This document shows, one piece after another, positions 22,793-31,984 of a stretch of 64,000 nucleotides of DNA (position 1 is its first letter; every line of letters begins with the position of its first letter). The translations under genes and the position numbers were made by a program. Source of the stretch: Diprion similis (Eukaryota > Arthropoda > Insecta > Hymenoptera > Diprionidae). The stretch spans positions 310,001-374,000 of the forward strand of contig NC_060110.1 of the NCBI RefSeq assembly GCF_021155765.1, read 5' to 3'. A model generated the notes under the pieces. It ran no database searches and was not told the origin of the DNA. It saw nothing but the letters and a program-made list of their open reading frames with translations.

Positions 22793-22896
22793 CCCTTCGA
22801 AAAATCACTGATTTTCGCGATTTTTTTTTTAATGTTGTAGTAAACTAATCGGTCTGGTTTTCTTTTTATAAATAAATACATTTATGCCGAATACAA

Positions 22897-23338
22897 TGTT
22901 ACGTCCGACGTCCCGCCTCACGTTTCTCCTACCTTCCTCGACGCATGTCTTTACCTACCATTCCCACACTCCATATCTTGTCATCCTATTTCCATCTTGG
23001 CTTACACCACTCGCTATCGCCCTTACCTTGCTATTTCGATCCCCCTCTACCCTGTATCCTCGCTCATTTTCTCATGCAAAAGACTCACTCTTATTCCAAC
23101 GCTCTTACCTCTTACATTCAACTTCAACTCCCGTTCCCCAAAACCATTCCCTCAACTACTCCTCATCGACTTCACTCAATTTCCAAATCAAAATAAAAGT
23201 TATAATCATTCTCTAATTACTGTTCTTTCCCTTCCGTTCCCTGAACGAAGACGTCGACGACTACGAACCAACAAAAATAGCACCCGAACCAACACCATCG
23301 GGTGGGTACATGGACTGCCGTCCCCCTGTGCCGTAACA
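22897..23338 (+). repeat. Gypsy-2 5' LTR
   Basis: It runs TGTTACGTCCGACG to GCCGTAACA. It carries an AATAAAAGTTATAA segment near 23193 (polyadenylation-like). It is related to the solo LTR at 8026-8501. Open frames inside it are chance. Confidence 0.95.
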
Positions 23339-23397
23339 TTCTGGTGGCAGCGGTTTTGCCGTCGACCTACCCTTTGTTCAGTGCTTCGGAAAATCTA

Positions 23398-23658
23398 CGC
23401 AAGAAAAGTATTAATACGCAAAACTCCCGATATCATATCAATAAGTGATAGCCACGTAGAGAGTGTTCGCCGGCAAATCAAGTGCGTACCTGACAAATTC
23501 AGAACCCGCAACAAACTGTGCAACGAGTGGAAATATACGACGCAAGAAAAGTGTTAATACGCAAAACTCCCGATATCATATCAATAAGTGATAGCCACGT
23601 CAAGAGTGTTCGCCGGCAAATCAAGTGTGAACCTGACAAATTCAGAACCCGCAACGAA
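23398..23658. repeat. 143-bp tandem duplication in the Gypsy-2 leader
   Basis: CGCAAGAAAAGT followed by the AACTCCCGATATCATATC segment occurs at 23398 and again at 23541, and both copies end in CAGAACCCGCAAC. The copies differ at a handful of bases. It lies between the primer-binding site and gag, where packaging and leader RNA structure would be expected. Confidence 0.85.
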
Positions 23659-24025
23659 CTAAATATACGGACGACAGCCGATCTATACCACACATCACCT
23701 TTTGGAACCCAAAATTGTGATTAGCCCCACCCGTTTCTGGACGCCTGCGACGCTGGAACAAGAATTTGGACCCAAGATTGGCATCACTCAGATACCTGGA
23801 ACACCAAACCGAGACTCTTTAACACGCAACGGACTTCCCCGCCTACACCCTCCTCTTGCCGACGGACGACGTGCATCACGTCTTCAAGTCTCACCTGCCT
23901 TCAGCCGCCTACAACCATGCTGTACCTTGCGTTTGTGTTCATCTTTGCTCTGTAAGTTTGTTGTAATCCTTAGTAATAAGTTGATATTTCATCCCCGTAC
24001 CCATTGCCCATCTACGAAAATCGAT

Positions 24026-25144
24026 ATGGCACCAACTAATGAGACCGGTTCATCTTTTTGGTCAGTGAAAGACGTCTTACCGACGATCCCTGCGTTCGAT
24101 GGCAACAACATGCCTTTTGACCAATTTGTGGAACAATTGCGCCACGTGGAAACCCTCATTAGAGCTTCAGACAAAATGACCCTTGCTAAATTTGCACAAT
24201 CAAAAATTACCGGCTCCGCTTCCCAATATTTAGTAGGCATTAATTGCAACGACGTCGAAGACCTTATAACGGCCCTCAGCCGAGCATACCGTCCAGACAT
24301 CCCCGTACGTCAATTATCAATTCAATTAGATAGAATTACCCAACAACCGCGTGAGCGTGTCATCGATTACTCATGCAGAATAAGAGTCATATCAAACGAA
24401 ATAAGCAAAGCTATCGAAAAAAAATACCCGCCAGACATAGCAAGCGCTTTGCTAAATGACTTAAGAAAAGACACTGCTAGAACATTCATTAGAGGGCTTA
24501 GACCAGAATTAGAGTGGAGAATAGCTACCATCAGACCACTCCCTACCTTTGATATCGCCGTCAGCGTCGCCGAAAGCGAGGAGACCGAGTTAAATAACCG
24601 TCAAATGCAACGCTTTGCACAATATTGTACTCCTCTTACGCCTATGTATCCCCCAATTTCCGTCTCTGTCTGCCAAAACGATACCCCTCCACCTCAGGTG
24701 TCCATAACCCCCTCCCTCATCCCCCCTCTAATGTCATTGCCCACACCTGGTTACGCGCATCAGCAAGCGCCCGGTATCGAACCCATGTCCTACGCCTAAG
24801 CGCTCGGTGCAAGCACCCTCGCGCCTCCCGCAGATCGAACGAGGACCTCGCCGACTATTTGCCAATTCTGCAACCACCGAGGTCACCTGATCACGGAATG
24901 CCATCGCCTGCAAAATACAAGATACTGTACCAAATGTCGGCGAATGGGCCACTTTTACAATGAGTGCAACCAACCCAGCAGAAGCGACAAACTGTACTGC
25001 GATAACTGTAAGCGCAGAGGCCACACATCAGACCAATGTAGATCTCCCCCGCATGATAACCAAAACCATGTAAGTTCGAATCAAGATTTAAACGGCAACA
25101 CTGCCCGCGGGGAGAACGCGCCCGCGAGCTATGCAAACAACTAG
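24026..25144 (+). pseudogene. gag: Gypsy-2 Gag (capsid plus three CCHC knuckles), one in-frame stop
   Basis: I place the start at the ATG at 24026 (MAPTNETGSSFW), since the capsid-like region follows directly; the frame is open further upstream without other support. The capsid region includes LPTIPAFDG, FVEQLRHVE and RTFIRGLRPELEWRI, as in Gypsy Gag. An in-frame TAA at 24797-24799 falls in the Pro-rich linker. Beyond it the same frame reads three zinc knuckles: CQFCNHRGHLITEC, CTKCRRMGHFYNEC and CDNCKRRGHTSDQC, ending at 25144. The stop is probably a mutation. It could be a leaky stop separating capsid from nucleocapsid, though that would be unusual. Confidence 0.85.
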
Positions 25145-28039
25145 CGTTCCGATCCACAAGACACATCTTAATAACAGCTTCAGCTGATCCCCCTTTAATT
25201 TCAATCGATACCCCTGAATTGACAAAGATCTCTAAATTTATTATCGACACCGGTGCAGACGTAAACTTAATCAAAGAAAGTTGCGTTAAGCCCTTCGTAC
25301 GACGCACCACAGACGAACGTTTGACATTGACTGGTATAACGGACGAAAAGACGGAAACCATCGCAAAAACGGAAATACGCTTTAATAACAACTCCCATAC
25401 CTTTCACTTGGTCCCTGATTCATTTCCAGTCCCACATGACGGTATTTTAGGCCAACCCTTTTGACGAAAAGAGAAAGCAACTATCTCGTTCAACTCAAAC
25501 TCGGTAATGCTTGGATCCTCATTGCCAATCCACTTCAACAAAATCGAACAACCACCCCCTGAAACCGCACGTGTTATTACAATACAGGCCCGCACCGCGA
25601 AGGTCATCCCGATAATAGTTGCAAACCCAGATATCAAAGTAGGCTACCTTAAACACATTAATTTAGGCAACAATGTTCTTTGTGGTGAAGCAATAGTTCG
25701 AAATCAGAACGGCATCGCTTATTCCTACGTGTTCAATTGCAACGAATCTGTCGTAGAGATAGCATCTCCAACGGCAACCCTGGAAGAATTCGACGAACCA
25801 CTGAGCACAGCCATGCCCGAAATTAAGTCTACCCCGCCGAATAATTCTGACAAAAATAATGGACAAAAATCCCCCCTTCCTACCCAAACCACTTCTCATA
25901 ATAATTCATTAATTCTTGCCACTAATAATCACATATGCCGTCCGCCCCATTACCCCCCCTCCAACCCCCGCCAGCTCACTGACCTCGCACATCAGCAACC
26001 TGAGCCCCGCATACCTGATAACAGTGCACCTCGTCGTGGCGCCGCAACAGTACTCTTAACTGACAGTAGGTCAGAGAGATTGGACACACTAAAGAATAGT
26101 GTGTGCCTCGATCATCTAAATGACACCGAAAAACAATCAACACTCGACCTGCTAACAGAATTTAACCATCTTTTCTATCTCCCGGGAGATAAATTAGGCC
26201 ATACCAATCTAACCCATCACACTATCCCCACGACAGACGACACACCAATTCACACCAAACAATATCGTTTTCCAAAAATCCACAAAGATGAAATCGAATC
26301 CCAGGTCAATAAACTCCTTCGGCAAGACCTTATTAAACATTCCGCATCTCCTTATAATTCTCCGGTTTGGATCGTCCCCAAAAAACCCGATATTGACGGT
26401 AATAAACGATGGCGCATGGTGATCGACTACCGAACGAAAGCTCGACGAAAAAACAATCGGCGACGCCTATCCAATGCCCGACATCACCGAAATTCTTGAT
26501 CAACTTGGCTCAGCTAAATATTTCTCTACATTCGACCTTGCTTCCGGCTTTCATCAAATTCCCATGCACCCCGATCACAGTGCAAAAACTGCGTTTTCGA
26601 CGCCCCGGGGTCACTATGAATTCTCCCGAATGCCCTTTGGACTAAAAAACGCCCCTGCCACGTTCCAAAGGCTCATGGATCAAGTCCTGCTAGGCTTACA
26701 AGGCAATGAGATGTTCGTATATTTGGATGACATGGTTATTTACGCTCGAAATTTACAAGAACATGAGATTAAATTCAGAAAATTGATGAAAAGACTAACT
26801 GAAGCCGGCTTGACTCTGCAGCCAGACAAATGCCAATTCCTGCGCAAAGAAGTCGTTTACCTTGGTCACCTTATCACTGAGTCAGGAGTTAGACCTGACC
26901 CCGGGAAGTTAGTAGCTGTGAAAGAATATCCTGTCCCGAAAAATCCCAAAAATGTTAAACAGTTCCTCGGTCTTTTGGGTTATTATCGCAGGTTTGTCCC
27001 AAATTTCGGAAAAATTGCAAAATGCCTCACTAACCTAACCAAGAAGGATACCCCTTTCATTTGGACATCCGAACACCAATCTGCCTTCGAAACCTTACGT
27101 GATTGTTTATGCAAAGAACCAATTCTCCAATACCCGGACTTCAGCAAGCCGTTTACGCTCACTACCGACGCGTCAAAATTCGCCATCGGTGCGGTTCTGA
27201 GTCAAGATAAGAACGGTGCCGACTTACCAGTAGCGTACGCATCCCGAGCACTCAAATCCGCTGAATTAAATTACTCGGTGCCCGATAAAGAATTTTTAGC
27301 CGCCTACTGGAGCATCAACCACTTCCGCCCCTACATCTACGGTCAGAAATTTACTTTAGTTACAGACCACGAGCCCCTCAAGTGGGTAAAAAGCGTTAAG
27401 AAGCCTAATTCTTGTTTATTACGATGGAGTCTAGAACTAGCAGAATACGATTTTGATACCAAACATAAATCGGGAAAAGCGAATGTCAACGCCGATGCTC
27501 TATCAAGAAACACGCCGCCTGACGTCGCACAAATCCTTCCTATAGATGCAAAACGCCCTCGTCCCACGACCGAATCCTCTGACAGCAAACCGAAAAAACG
27601 CACCAAAGAGACCCATCAGTACCCCCGACGCCCTCGACAGACCACAGACGAATCTACGAACCCGGCCCCGCTAAAATGCCCAAAAATCTCACAACCCACC
27701 TATCAAATGATATACCCCTCTGATTCTTCTGATCTCTCAGATGACGAATCCAGTGACAAAGAAACCGCAATGCCTTTTAAACCTCCCCCCTCCATCCCAC
27801 CTCCGCACCCGGTTCATCCCTACCCGAAACGCCATCGAGAAACGAATTCCTCTACAAACCCTGGACCACGTAAGAGACCACACCTGAGCTACTTTTCGGA
27901 CACTTCAACTAGCTCAGATGACCTACAAACCCCAGAGACGAACTCAGAAGTTGATGACATTAATTCGTCTACCGATTTACCTAGCCCCCCTCACATTCAC
28001 AACCCCTCCTATAGCGATTTCCTTATAGAATGCGACACG

Positions 28040-28490
28040 TTCCCTCTTATGCGTAATAAATATATTAAAGAAATAAAAGCCGACCTACCACAGCAAAAAG
28101 ATAATTTGGCTCACTGCATATCAGCTGATTGCCAAATGTCAAAAGGAATCGCGTCACAGCTAAGAGAACGTAAATTCATAAATCGCGAACAACTTAGAGA
28201 ATTCAATCCGACGTGACTGACGTTATTTCTACCACTTACGGAAACCGAAAAATTTATAACCTAGTGACAAAGCCAAAGTACAATGACAAACCCTTACCAC
28301 ACGTTTTTTTTGATACCTTGGTCAACTTTAGGAAAACCTTGGAAGAAGATGGTGTAACATCTGTCTCAATCCCGTTAATAGGCTGCGGACTCGACAAACT
28401 AGAATGGAGCACGGTGCGCAAAATGATCCACTATATTTTCAAAGATTCAAAAATGAATATCAACGTTTGTCGCCTTGACCCTCCGCTTTC
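28040..28490 (+). other. first TARG1/OARD1-like macrodomain inside Pol
   Basis: After the acidic linker the protein reads NLAHCISADCQMSKGIASQL, then (after the 1-base frame change near 28210) KIYNLVTKPKYNDKP, VTSVSIPLIGCGLDKLEW and a final MNINVCRL strand. The order and wording match the C6orf130/TARG1/OARD1 group of macrodomains: a first strand with LAHCIS.DC, a LITK.....KP motif and an IGCGLD..W motif. In that family the Lys of ITK and the Asp of GCGLD are catalytic for removing ADP-ribose from glutamate, and both are present here. Assignment is by pattern recognition; structure prediction would test it. Confidence 0.75.
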
Positions 28491-28989
28491 AACCCCCACA
28501 CACCACGACGACACAACGGTGTCCGTTGATAACGCCTCACCTGACCCCATCCCTTCCACATCTGGTAACCCCGCTCCCTCTCTTCGTCCGCCGCGTAAGA
28601 AACCGCGACCTCCGACCAAATCAGTCGCACCTCTCGCGACCCCACCTCCCCTCCCAGCCACGAACGTCGTCATGCCCCCGCCTGTAGGACCCCCGCGTCG
28701 TGCTAAGAGACGCCCAACAGCTGTCCCCAGGCCAGCGAACTCTACTACTCACCCCCCTACGCCTCCTCCCTCAGTACCCACACTGGCCTCTGATAACGAC
28801 AACAGCTCCAACTCGCTCACGGATACCGAATACCATACATGCGCCCGACAATCCGAATCCGATATGGAAACCACACACCCTGACCATGACATTGATCCCA
28901 ATGTCGACGACGATTTGACCGATACCTCCCACGATTTCACGAACTTTGTTGACAACTTGGACGACATACCGGTAGCTGACAATGTCAAA

Positions 28990-29405
28990 GACACCAATGA
29001 TGGTCTTTTGATGCTCAAAACCAATTATGCACACTTTATATCAACAGACTGCTCTTGGACTAAAGGCATATCATCACAACTTGCCCACGATAATATCGTT
29101 GACCCAGATATAGTTATGAGGCCCCGTCCACAGAAATTTGATATTATCGAATCCAAGCATAACAGCCGACGGATCTTTACTCTAGTACTAAAATCAAAAG
29201 AATCAGATAAAAGCAACCTATATGATATTTTTCAACTCTTGTCTAAACTGAAAACAGTCTTGACCGATTCAATTCCGAAATTCCTCGCTTTCCCAATAAC
29301 GGACGATAGTTTAGGTGGACTCGATCCTCGTGTTATCCGAAAACTCTTATCTTACCTTTTCGCAGACTTACAAATTCAAATTACGCTTTGCCGCAACACG
29401 ACTGT
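28990..29405 (+). other. second, divergent macrodomain-like segment inside Pol
   Basis: The segment repeats the pattern of the first one: NYAHFISTDCSWTKGISSQL, RRIFTLVLKSKESDKSN, FLAFPITDDSLGGLD, IQITLCRN. It keeps the Lys position (LVLK) and an Asp after GGL, but the tight GCGLD loop is lengthened and altered, so ligand binding or catalysis may be lost. It joins directly to the integrase zinc region (DECLRKEIIKECHES). Confidence 0.6.
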
Positions 29406-30547
29406 CACCCCAGACGAATGTTTACGTAAAGAAATAATTAAAGAATGCCACGAATCATTAATTGGCGGTCATCAAGGCGTCACAAAAATATACAACCGCA
29501 TTAGACAAAAATGTTTTTGGCCCCACATGAAAGAGCAAATCCAAGACTTTATAAGAACTTGTGAGAGTTGCCAAAAGAAAAAACTAGTAAGAGTAAAAAC
29601 CAGGTTGCCGATGGTGATAACAGATACTCCTGCCGATGCATTCGACAAAGTAGCACTAGACATCGTTGGTCCTCTCCCCCTTACTAAATCAAACAACAAA
29701 TACCTTTTGACGATACAATGCAACTTGACGAAATTTCTGGACGCCATCCCTTTACCTGACGCCACTGCCAAAACAATAGGTGCAGCATTCGCGAAAGAAT
29801 ACATTACACGTTACGGTGCCCCTCGAGCAATACTTACAGACCAAGGACAGAATTTCATGAGCACAGTCATTAAGCAACTTTGTAAACTCTTTAAAATAAA
29901 ACAAATTCGAACTACAGCTTACCGCCCACAATCTAACGGATCGCTAGAACGCAGTCACCTTGTTCTCACCGAACACGTCAAGCATTACACGAATGCTGGT
30001 AGAGACTGGGATGAATACATCCGCTTTGCTATTTTCTGTTATAACACCGCGAAGCACGAAGGCACTAACTTCACTCCCCATCAGCTAATTTTCGGTTCCT
30101 ATGCCAGACTTCCGACAGACGCGAACCCTGCCAGCGCTTACACCCGTTCCTACGATTCGTTCCTTCTGGATTTAATCTCCAACCTATCCAGCATACGAAG
30201 AAACGCCGCGGCTAACCTCATCTTAGCAAAGCACCGTTCCAAGACGTACTACGACCGTCGTACCAACAACCAAAATTTCGAAGCAGGCCAAAAGGTCTAT
30301 CTACTAAACGAAACCCGATCTAAATTTGACGACCACTATAAAGGAGCATATACGATCAAGCGCATAATTGACGATATCAATGCCGAAATTTTCATCACCC
30401 CCCATAAGACCAAAATTGTCCATCTGAATAAACTCAAATTAGCACAGGAAGAAAGTGATTCAAATTAAACCACCTTTAGAAGCCAACAGCCGTATATTAT
30501 CAATCTACCCGTAACTGCATCATATTACGCCTCATGCCCTGAATGAC

Positions 30548-30976
30548 GTGCTTCAACGCTCAGCCGATCTAAGCACACACTATCGTACTCAAAGTAACAT
30601 GCATCGCCTCACCACCAACCTCAGCTATGGCGGAATCGTCTTCGCGTCCCTCTCAGCAGTTTTCCTTTGCTACAAACTCTCATTATTTAGAAGAATCTCA
30701 AAAGTATACTCTTCCTGTAAATCCAGGCGAATACGCCACAACCTCGACTCACGTCATCCAAGACCCCAAATCCTTTCCCACCATGCCATTTCCCACCCTC
30801 ACCTAGAAAATAGGTCATTCCGTAAGGACCTGTCTCCTCGCACTTCGTCGCTGCCCCGAGCTCATTCAGAAATTGAAATGATGGAAATGTCCAAGCTACG
30901 ACAACACCCACGTAAACTGCCCCGCGATCAGAGCCTTGACGCTAGTTCCGACTCCCTCTTCATCTGGACAGACTAA
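30548..30976 (+). CDS. Gypsy-2 third ORF, small protein with one membrane segment
   Basis: A 142-codon frame follows pol by 79 bp. It starts MLQRSADLSTHYR, has one hydrophobic segment (about residues 27-49, GGIVFASLSAVFLCYKL) and then a basic, Arg/His/Pro-rich tail. The layout, a transmembrane helix with a short basic tail, could be what is left of an envelope C-terminus or an accessory membrane protein; no signal peptide, furin site or Cys pattern supports a full envelope. The hydrophobic run and open frame in a place where other Gypsies keep ORF3 are the only support. Confidence 0.4.
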   Translation: MLQRSADLSTHYRTQSNMHRLTTNLSYGGIVFASLSAVFLCYKLSLFRRISKVYSSCKSRRIRHNLDSRHPRPQILSHHAISHPHLENRSFRKDLSPRTSSLPRAHSEIEMMEMSKLRQHPRKLPRDQSLDASSDSLFIWTD

Positions 30977-31537
30977 GCCCTCTACTACATATTTATAAGA
31001 ACATATCCATTGTTATGCCCAAATATCATTCAATAAAAATGTCTCAAATTACGCTATTATAATAACCGTATACACTATCTACAATTATACCCCTGACATT
31101 GTCATTTAACTTTGACTTGTATCTATAATATCTACAATCAAAACCCTAAAAATTATAATTTAACTATAATCGTATATATACTATCTACAATTATACCCTT
31201 GACATTGTCATTTAACTTTGAGTGTATCTATATTATCTACAATCAAAACCCTAAAAAATTATAATTTAATTATAATTGTACCTTTATAATATGTAACTAC
31301 TACACGCTTAAATTATAAGAACATACCTATTGTTACAAAAAAAAAAAAAAAAAACATTTCTGCTAAAAATGTATATTAACCCGCTTAAACGCGCATTAAC
31401 CCTAGGCGCTATACTCCTTAAGGCAAACTATATTGTAATCTTTCGTAAGTGAGTCGATACATTACCCAAAAAATTCGGTTTTCCTTCGAACATTCGGCTC
31501 TGTACCCTCACCGAATGTTCTTCCCGAAGGGGGGGCG
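30977..31537. repeat. Gypsy-2 3' non-coding region with ~106-bp tandem duplication
   Basis: CTATCTACAATTATACCC begins near 31075 and again near 31181, each followed by GACATTGTCATTTAACTTTGA and AATCAAAACCCTAAAAA. An 18-A tract lies near 31336-31353. The polypurine tract is just before 31538. Confidence 0.8.
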
Positions 31538-31979
31538 TGTTACGTCCGACGTCCCGCCTCACGTTTCTCCCACCTTCCTCGACGCTTGTCTTTACCTACC
31601 ATTCCCACACTCCATATCTTGTCATCCTATTTCCATCTTGGCTTACACCACTCGCTATCGCCCTTACCTTGCTATTTCGATCCCCCTCTACCCTGTATCC
31701 TCGCTCATTTTCTCATGCAAAAGACTCACTCTTATTCCAACGCTCTTACCTCTTACATTCAACTTCAACTCCCGTTCCCCAAAACCATTCCCTCAACTAC
31801 TCCTCATCGACTTCACTCAATTTCCAAATCAAAATAAAAGTTATAATCATTCTCTAATTACTGTTCTTTCCCTTCCGTTCCCTGAACGAAGACGTCGACT
31901 ACTACGAACCAACAAAAATAGCACCCGAACCAACACCACCGGGTGGGTACATGGACTGCCGTCCCCCTGTACCGTAACA
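31538..31979 (+). repeat. Gypsy-2 3' LTR
   Basis: Same 442-bp unit as the 5' LTR; I count about five substitutions. It is followed by ACAA, the target duplication. Confidence 0.95.
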
Positions 31980-31984
31980 ACAAA

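Follow-up and report, generated by a model that had tools for sequence, protein, structure and literature searches.

TARG1-like macrodomains preceding integrase in the Pol of a Ty3/Gypsy retrotransposon lineage of Diprion similis

Two macrodomains in a Gypsy Pol

We found that a Ty3/Gypsy LTR retrotransposon of Diprion similis carries ∼1.9 kb, located after RNase H and before the zinc domain of integrase, that codes for two macrodomains, here termed MD1 and MD2. Sequence and profile comparisons identify MD1 as a homolog of TARG1/OARD1 and MD2 as a macrodomain whose closest match is MD1. We predict MD1 to be an active hydrolase of the TARG1/OARD1 type, which removes ADP-ribose from Asp/Glu; as read from its sequence, MD2 differs from catalytic TARG1-like macrodomains in having no intact catalytic GCGLD loop. 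The initial annotation had placed two TARG1-like macrodomains at this position, a proposal supported by sequence, by profiles, by a fold model of a relative's MD1, and by purifying selection between diverged families.

Structure of the element and its insert

The window, that is, the whole stretch of 64,000 nucleotides that was analyzed (G000:C6:310001-374000), contains the 9.1-kb element on its plus strand, from 22897 to 31979. Its two LTRs of 442 nt each (22897..23338, reading TGTTACG...CGTAACA, and 31538..31979) have TG...CA ends and 5 differences between them, and they are flanked on both sides by the target site duplication (TSD) ACAA (22893..22896 and 31980-31983). The Gag part (24026..24796) gave a weak Retrotrans_gag match (E value of 0.012, below the Pfam cut-off), the zinc-knuckle part (24800..25141) matched zf-CCHC in two stretches (19.3 versus a cut-off of 20.8 bits), and the aspartic protease part (25060..25461) matched RVP (20.1 versus 20.7 bits). 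Reverse transcriptase (RT) and the first part of RNase H (26423..27349) scored above the cut-offs of RVT_1 and RT_RNaseH_2, and Pfam also recognized the H2C2 zinc-binding domain (29413..29583) and the catalytic core (rve, 29656..29928) of integrase. The order protease, RT, RNase H, integrase is thus that of Ty3/Gypsy elements, with the protease and the zinc knuckles slightly below cut-off, and both macrodomain segments lie within this element in the place and order originally claimed for them.

Some minor features accompany this architecture. A 153-residue frame 3′ of integrase (30515-30973), with one hydrophobic stretch by eye and no Pfam match, may be an envelope remnant or a third ORF. The leader after the 5′ LTR contains a 121-nt direct repeat (23397-23517 and 23540-23660, 95% alike), and neither an Rfam match nor a tRNA was found in the 64-kb window.

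The insert consists of a low-complexity stretch, MD1, a linker, and MD2. The N-terminal half of MD1, which contains NLAHCISADC, spans 28058..28213, with a frame break at its end, and the C-terminal half spans 28198..28482, with the catalytic Lys codon at 28270-28272 and that of the GCGLD Asp at 28393-28395. Human TARG1 in the PDB was matched both by the N-half segment 27944-28213 (E value of 6e-4) and by the C-half segment 28198-28503 (E value of 4e-11). A linker rich in Pro, Ser, and Asp (28483..28971) follows; no Pfam family was found in the region 28504-29013. MD2 (∼28972..29400) lies directly 5′ of the integrase zinc-binding domain. The window MD2 had no significant single-sequence PDB match and no Pfam family, but a query with the C-half of MD1 found it (28% identity, E value of 1.2e-6), as well as the MD2 of many other copies. 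Pfam Macro matched the C-half of MD1 alone, below the cut-off (17.4 versus 22 bits), and did not match MD2.

Because MD1 is frame-broken near 28.2 kb, Pol is not intact in the window copy. In the genome (269 Mb, 60 contigs), at least 38 rows among the 150 scored of 212 candidates match the C-half of MD1 over nearly its full length at ≥87% identity, and at least 8 of these lie in open frames of 1801 to 1802 aa and so represent intact copies elsewhere. The subthreshold Pfam Macro scores of the window halves could point to a chance resemblance or an assembly chimera, but the existence of these other copies refutes that reading; gene models in Neodiprion and Athalia, the paired LTRs, and the TSD also speak against it, and we give it practically no credence.

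Fold and catalytic residues of MD1

We built an MD1 profile from ten TARG1-like macrodomains, five from the Gypsy lineage (L037, L031, P0002, P0003, and P0004) and the others from P0008, P0005 (two domains), P0009, and P0011; the window MD1 was left out. This profile matched TARG1 in the PDB (4j5q) with an E value of 5e-59 over 141 residues and retrieved 2257 proteins at an E value of 1e-3 or better among 3035 candidates; 18 of the 120 matches listed are named OARD1. The fold evidence comes from the sequence of a Neodiprion relative rather than from the frame-broken window copy. The AlphaFold2 model of this MD1 (17 sequences; pLDDT, 88.8; pTM, 0.85) had TARG1 as each of its first eight PDB matches, the best three with an rmsd of 1.8 Å and a TM score (query) of 0.83, in keeping with the fold that had been suggested for the first domain. 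A MacroD-type viral class for MD1 was rejected, since profile and fold searches put TARG1 closest and DarG next; the TARG1 match of the model had an E value of 1e-13, versus 5e-7 for the best alphavirus domain among the matches listed.

That the DNA-acting DarG comes next after TARG1 in the fold search fits an alternative in which nucleic acid is the substrate, with MD1 taking ADP-ribose off the phosphate ends of RNA or cDNA of the element. According to a review, TARG1 acts on phosphoesters that link ADP-ribose to the ends of nucleic acids, and RNA ADP-ribosylation may, speculatively, help to recognize transposon-derived or viral RNA (PMC7050489). TARG1 is nevertheless closer than DarG to the MD1 model, and we consider this alternative improbable.

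The TARG1 sequence in the PDB reads GCGLD at the second catalytic position, which we take to be Asp125. A review on the roles of TARG1 residues calls the second catalytic residue Glu125 (PMC7050489). Other reports describe K84A TARG1 as catalytically inactive (PMC10933786) and G123E TARG1 as having lost ADP-ribose binding (PMC5928194). The catalytic Lys and the GCGLD Asp are both present in the window copy and kept in 12 of the 12 aligned MD1 rows of the elements (one or two per family); altered loops occur in printed copies outside the alignment, namely, GCESR in the second domain of L044, SYGLD in L048, and GCVLD in L043. In family i, to which the window element belongs, Lys and Asp are kept in all 30 loci with the best-scoring copies; since 69 of the 102 sites do not vary in this family, we dropped this retention as proof of selection.

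Families and distribution

For the family survey, genome searches with RT, integrase, and MD1 were combined with the reading of 20 chosen regions and four smaller ones. Several families in the D. similis genome carry MD1, most of them together with MD2: family i, family ii (L031 and L032), family iii (L034 to L036, L047, and L048), family iv (L037 to L039 and L050), and family v (L045 and L046). MD2 was read directly 5′ of H2C2 in families i to iv, and family v has an MD2-like stretch recognized by eye only; the linker between MD1 and MD2 measures about 165 to 410 residues. Elsewhere, MD1 and RT are found in P0002 from Neodiprion virginianus, MD1, MD2, and integrase in P0003 from Athalia rosae, and MD1, RT, MD2, and integrase in the database proteins P0001 and P0004. 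The search for the same insert in insect genomes, as originally suggested, thus yielded several D. similis families, Neodiprion, and Athalia.

Two families depart from this pattern. The insert site harbors a degenerate MD2 alone in family vii (L055, one copy) and a very degenerate MD2 in family viii (L056 and L058), without MD1 at that site in either. An eraser is thus not obligatory at the insert site in families vii (one copy) and viii (two copies), since MD1 is missing there. After integrase, family viii encodes two further macrodomains, the first degenerate and the second of the active type, with a stretch between them that by eye resembles an aspartic protease, a part read from L040, L051, and L052, with the active-type macrodomain in partial sequence (loci G000:C14:3855000-3859500 and C14:5683571).

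MD2, a degenerate copy beside integrase

MD2 profiles matched cellular OARD1 with a probability of 99.1 (E value of 1e-18; hhalign) and element MD1 with a probability of 99.8. Evaluated by family, the probabilities against element MD1 were 99.5 (i), 98.4 (ii), 94.9 (iv), 97.6 (vii), and 47.9 (viii). In an MD2 model of middling confidence, the first two PDB matches in Foldseek were TARG1, with no MD1 row in the alignment; in the VIA list, unrelated folds tied with TARG1 for this model. The catalytic Lys and Asp that the initial annotation had pointed out hold for MD1 and fail for MD2, in which all 11 rows have a changed GCGLD loop (DDSLG in the window family); the Lys column has K in 7 of these rows. 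The pocket loops are degenerate, most so in families iv, vii, and viii.

MD2 adjoins integrase in all the cases read through (families i, ii, iii, iv, vii, and viii and P0001, P0003, and P0004), and it stays there where MD1 is gone, which argues for a role in integrase. This placement would also suit a tether, in which binding of the macrodomains to ADP-ribosylated chromatin or repair proteins would direct integrase to such sites, with hydrolysis being secondary. A macrodomain directly following a chromodomain in P0008 points the same way, as does the location of three of eight insertions examined in one common repeat, judged by eye on the flanks (G000:C3:18937169, C12:749392-749421, and C13:10697072-10697105), the 32-base core of which has 122 genome matches at ≤3 mismatches. 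The degenerate pocket loops of MD2 argue against a tether, as does the distance to MD1, the better binder by sequence, which lies ∼165 to 410 residues away from MD2. Moreover, the seven clear TSDs all differ, those of the six other insertions being CACA, CTCG, TAGG, CGAA, CTAC, and AACA, with no clear TSD in one of the eight copies examined. A sequence-specific target is rejected on this basis, and a tether seems unlikely to us.

Selection on MD1 and MD2

We then compared dN/dS between copies. In the family ii pair L031/L032, values were 0.05 for RT, 0.06 for MD1, 0.15 for MD2, and 0.16 for integrase, and the first and second linkers gave 0.07 and 0.27. MD1 of L037/L050 had a dN/dS of 0.14 at a dS of 0.457; these are the two pairs with a dS near 0.45. 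Other MD1 values were 0.21 (L035/L036), 0.37 (L045/L046), 0.49 from three changes (L037/L038), and 0.13 with saturated dS (L037/L046). Among four close pairs of family i, dN/dS was 0.72, 0.67, 0.36, and 0.68 for MD1 (5 to 8 amino acid changes each), 1.46, 0.38, 0.22, and 0.73 for MD2 (3 to 5 changes each), and 0.08, 0.17, 0.19, and 0.21 for RT; a fifth pair had no synonymous change in MD1.

These results show that purifying selection acts on MD1 in those diverged pairs that were compared; deep pairs favor constraint, and shallow pairs show weak or relaxed constraint. Neutral decay, raised in the initial annotation, is accordingly countered for MD1 by the diverged pairs (0.06 and 0.14) but not by the window family (0.36 to 0.72). 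The high values that close copies of the window family give for MD1 and MD2 would be expected of chance-captured passengers that serve only as folded spacers. In line with such passengers, the long linkers are of low complexity, and two families have no MD1 at the insert site; furthermore, constraint on the first linker matches that on MD1 in family ii, so that low dN/dS is not special to MD1. However, MD1 is nearly as constrained as RT between the diverged copies of family ii, the catalytic pair is complete in the aligned MD1s, and similar domains occur in other retroelement-like proteins. We regard the passenger explanation as rather improbable. As a separate observation, dS between L037 and L050 is 0.085 in the RNase H region and 0.457 in MD1, a contrast that hints at recombination between families.

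Origin of the insert

In an RT tree of 22 of the 48 RT slices, for which P0012 with its very long branch served as the root, 17 rows, those of the macrodomain-bearing families, group together with a support of 86/93. The spacing from RT to integrase is 2070 to 3477 bp inside this group versus 1126 to 1416 bp in four outside relatives (L057, L059, L060, and L061, with L060 absent from the RT tree and L061 having a partial integrase match), which leaves the latter no room for the macrodomain insert; L057, when read, showed a short tether. For L062, no integrase match was seen in the genome search with integrase. The simplest history would be a single gain in the macrodomain-bearing lineage.

The D. 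similis genome also contains a host gene, LOC124415963 (P0005; G000:C2:13509223-13514943), that encodes two TARG1-like macrodomains of the active type and, behind each of them, a degenerate domain, and a Diabrotica protein (P0009) has one such active-plus-degenerate pair. The host gene and its Athalia counterpart LOC105684241 (P0005 to P0007) resemble the element in this combination; unlike the element, LOC124415963 shows exon-like broken matches and is devoid of RT and integrase. MD2 profiles matched the host degenerate domains with probabilities of 0.4 (i), 75.4 (ii), 3.3 (iv), 1.0 (vii), and 0.9 (viii), a limited test in that the host degenerate domains themselves reach probabilities of only 77 against MD1 and 9 against OARD1 (hhalign). 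As MD2 is closer to element MD1 than to the degenerate domains of the host gene, co-capture of the host pair is not preferred as the source of MD2.

Domain trees were poorly resolved, with long branches throughout. The first omitted 5 of 55 rows (near-duplicate or partial), and the second omitted 17 of 55 (those five, long branches, host degenerate domains, and most MD2). The MD1s of families iv and v fell, with weak support (82/78 and 71/82), beside the active domains of the host gene. Topology tests, with long branches in play, rejected MD1 alone as a clade (p-AU of 1e-5) and MD1 with the host active domains (p-AU of 0.0004); MD1 plus MD2 (0.295) and MD1 plus MD2 plus host (0.217) survived. 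Acceptance of the MD1 plus MD2 clade is as expected from a duplication inside the lineage.

Proposed function

We propose that MD1, the predicted eraser, and MD2, its degenerate copy on the integrase side, act together to erase PARP-made marks during integration or in escape from silencing, a proposal that we rate at about an even chance. MD1 would have been captured from a cellular TARG1-like gene and then duplicated. It would be enzymatically active and erase Asp/Glu-linked ADP-ribose, its targets presumably being what host PARPs have modified, be it chromatin, repair proteins at integration gaps, or the integration complex itself; MD2 would have turned into an extension of integrase with a structural rather than an enzymatic role. 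Eraser and tether had both been put forward as putative roles in the initial annotation. Integration gaps would recruit PARPs, and viruses are known to counter host PARPs with macrodomains. A study on Drosophila without PARP-1 reports 8 significantly misregulated mobile elements (5 up and 3 down) and nine further gypsy-superfamily elements that rise below the significance limits, with indirect effects being possible (PMC7712786). Since five of the eight rise without PARP-1, removal of PARP products could benefit an element. The silencing of L1 by SIRT6-KAP1, as described in another report, is mammalian (PMC4695847). More tentatively, the Gypsy lineage may use MD1 in cis with its MD2-bearing integrase to control the PARP response at its own site, with other Ty3 lineages having converged on this solution.

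If MD1 is an eraser, the element would probably be capable of removing a mark by which the host signals DNA damage or silencing. Retention of a TARG1-type active site in an insect retrotransposon lineage would suggest that ADP-ribosylation stands in the front line of defense against such elements, and MD2, next to the zinc domain of integrase, would represent a novel type of integrase extension. As intact natural copies exist, both points are open to simple biochemistry.

Relation to known systems

Chromodomains guide some Gypsy integrases, and chromodomain elements likewise have an extra chromatin-related domain fused to integrase, although at its C terminus rather than 5′ of the zinc domain as here. 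TARG1/OARD1/C6orf130, of the ALC1-like class, has in common with MD1 the predicted fold, the Lys, the GCGLD Asp, and a whole-domain profile match. TARG1 is, however, a free-standing host enzyme, whereas MD1 is one part of a retrotransposon Pol, with MD2 after it, and MD2 has lost the GCGLD loop present in TARG1. Viral macrodomains, such as that of alphavirus nsP3, also reside in a viral or mobile genome with a proposed role against ADP-ribosylation; MD1 differs from the nsP3 type in being TARG1-like by sequence and predicted fold.

The initial annotation knew of no described case. This stands for Gypsy Pol as far as the titles and abstract openings of the open-licence papers listed go, none of which describes a macrodomain in a Gypsy element. 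It does not stand for LTR retroelements as such: fish epsilon-like endogenous retroviruses have macro-domain ORFs (Basta et al. 2009, as cited in the review PMC4977317). These resemble our element as LTR retroelements with a macro domain; compared by description only, theirs is in additional ORFs and ours is inside a Ty3/Gypsy Pol before integrase. A paper on rotifer LTR elements with extra ORFs (PMC5408684) contains no word starting with "macro."

TARG1-like macrodomains occur at other positions in further retroelement-like proteins as well. They follow integrase in P0012 (a Gypsy-like Pol with 121 member sequences) and P0059, and a macrodomain comes right after the chromodomain in P0008 and after the H2C2 domain in P0032; P0032 and P0059 are pieces of about 240 to 250 residues. 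Lys and Asp are kept in all four, with P0032 reading GCGID. The differing positions suggest repeated gain of macrodomains. In P0008, the series integrase, chromodomain, macrodomain is followed by a weak rhabdovirus glycoprotein match (19.3 versus a cut-off of 22 bits). Outside retroelements, we noted one TARG1-like macrodomain in a DNA ligase III-like protein (P0011), where it sits after the ligase C-terminal domain and before the BRCT domain, and another in a protein of Hubei virga-like virus 22 annotated as an RNA helicase (P0013).
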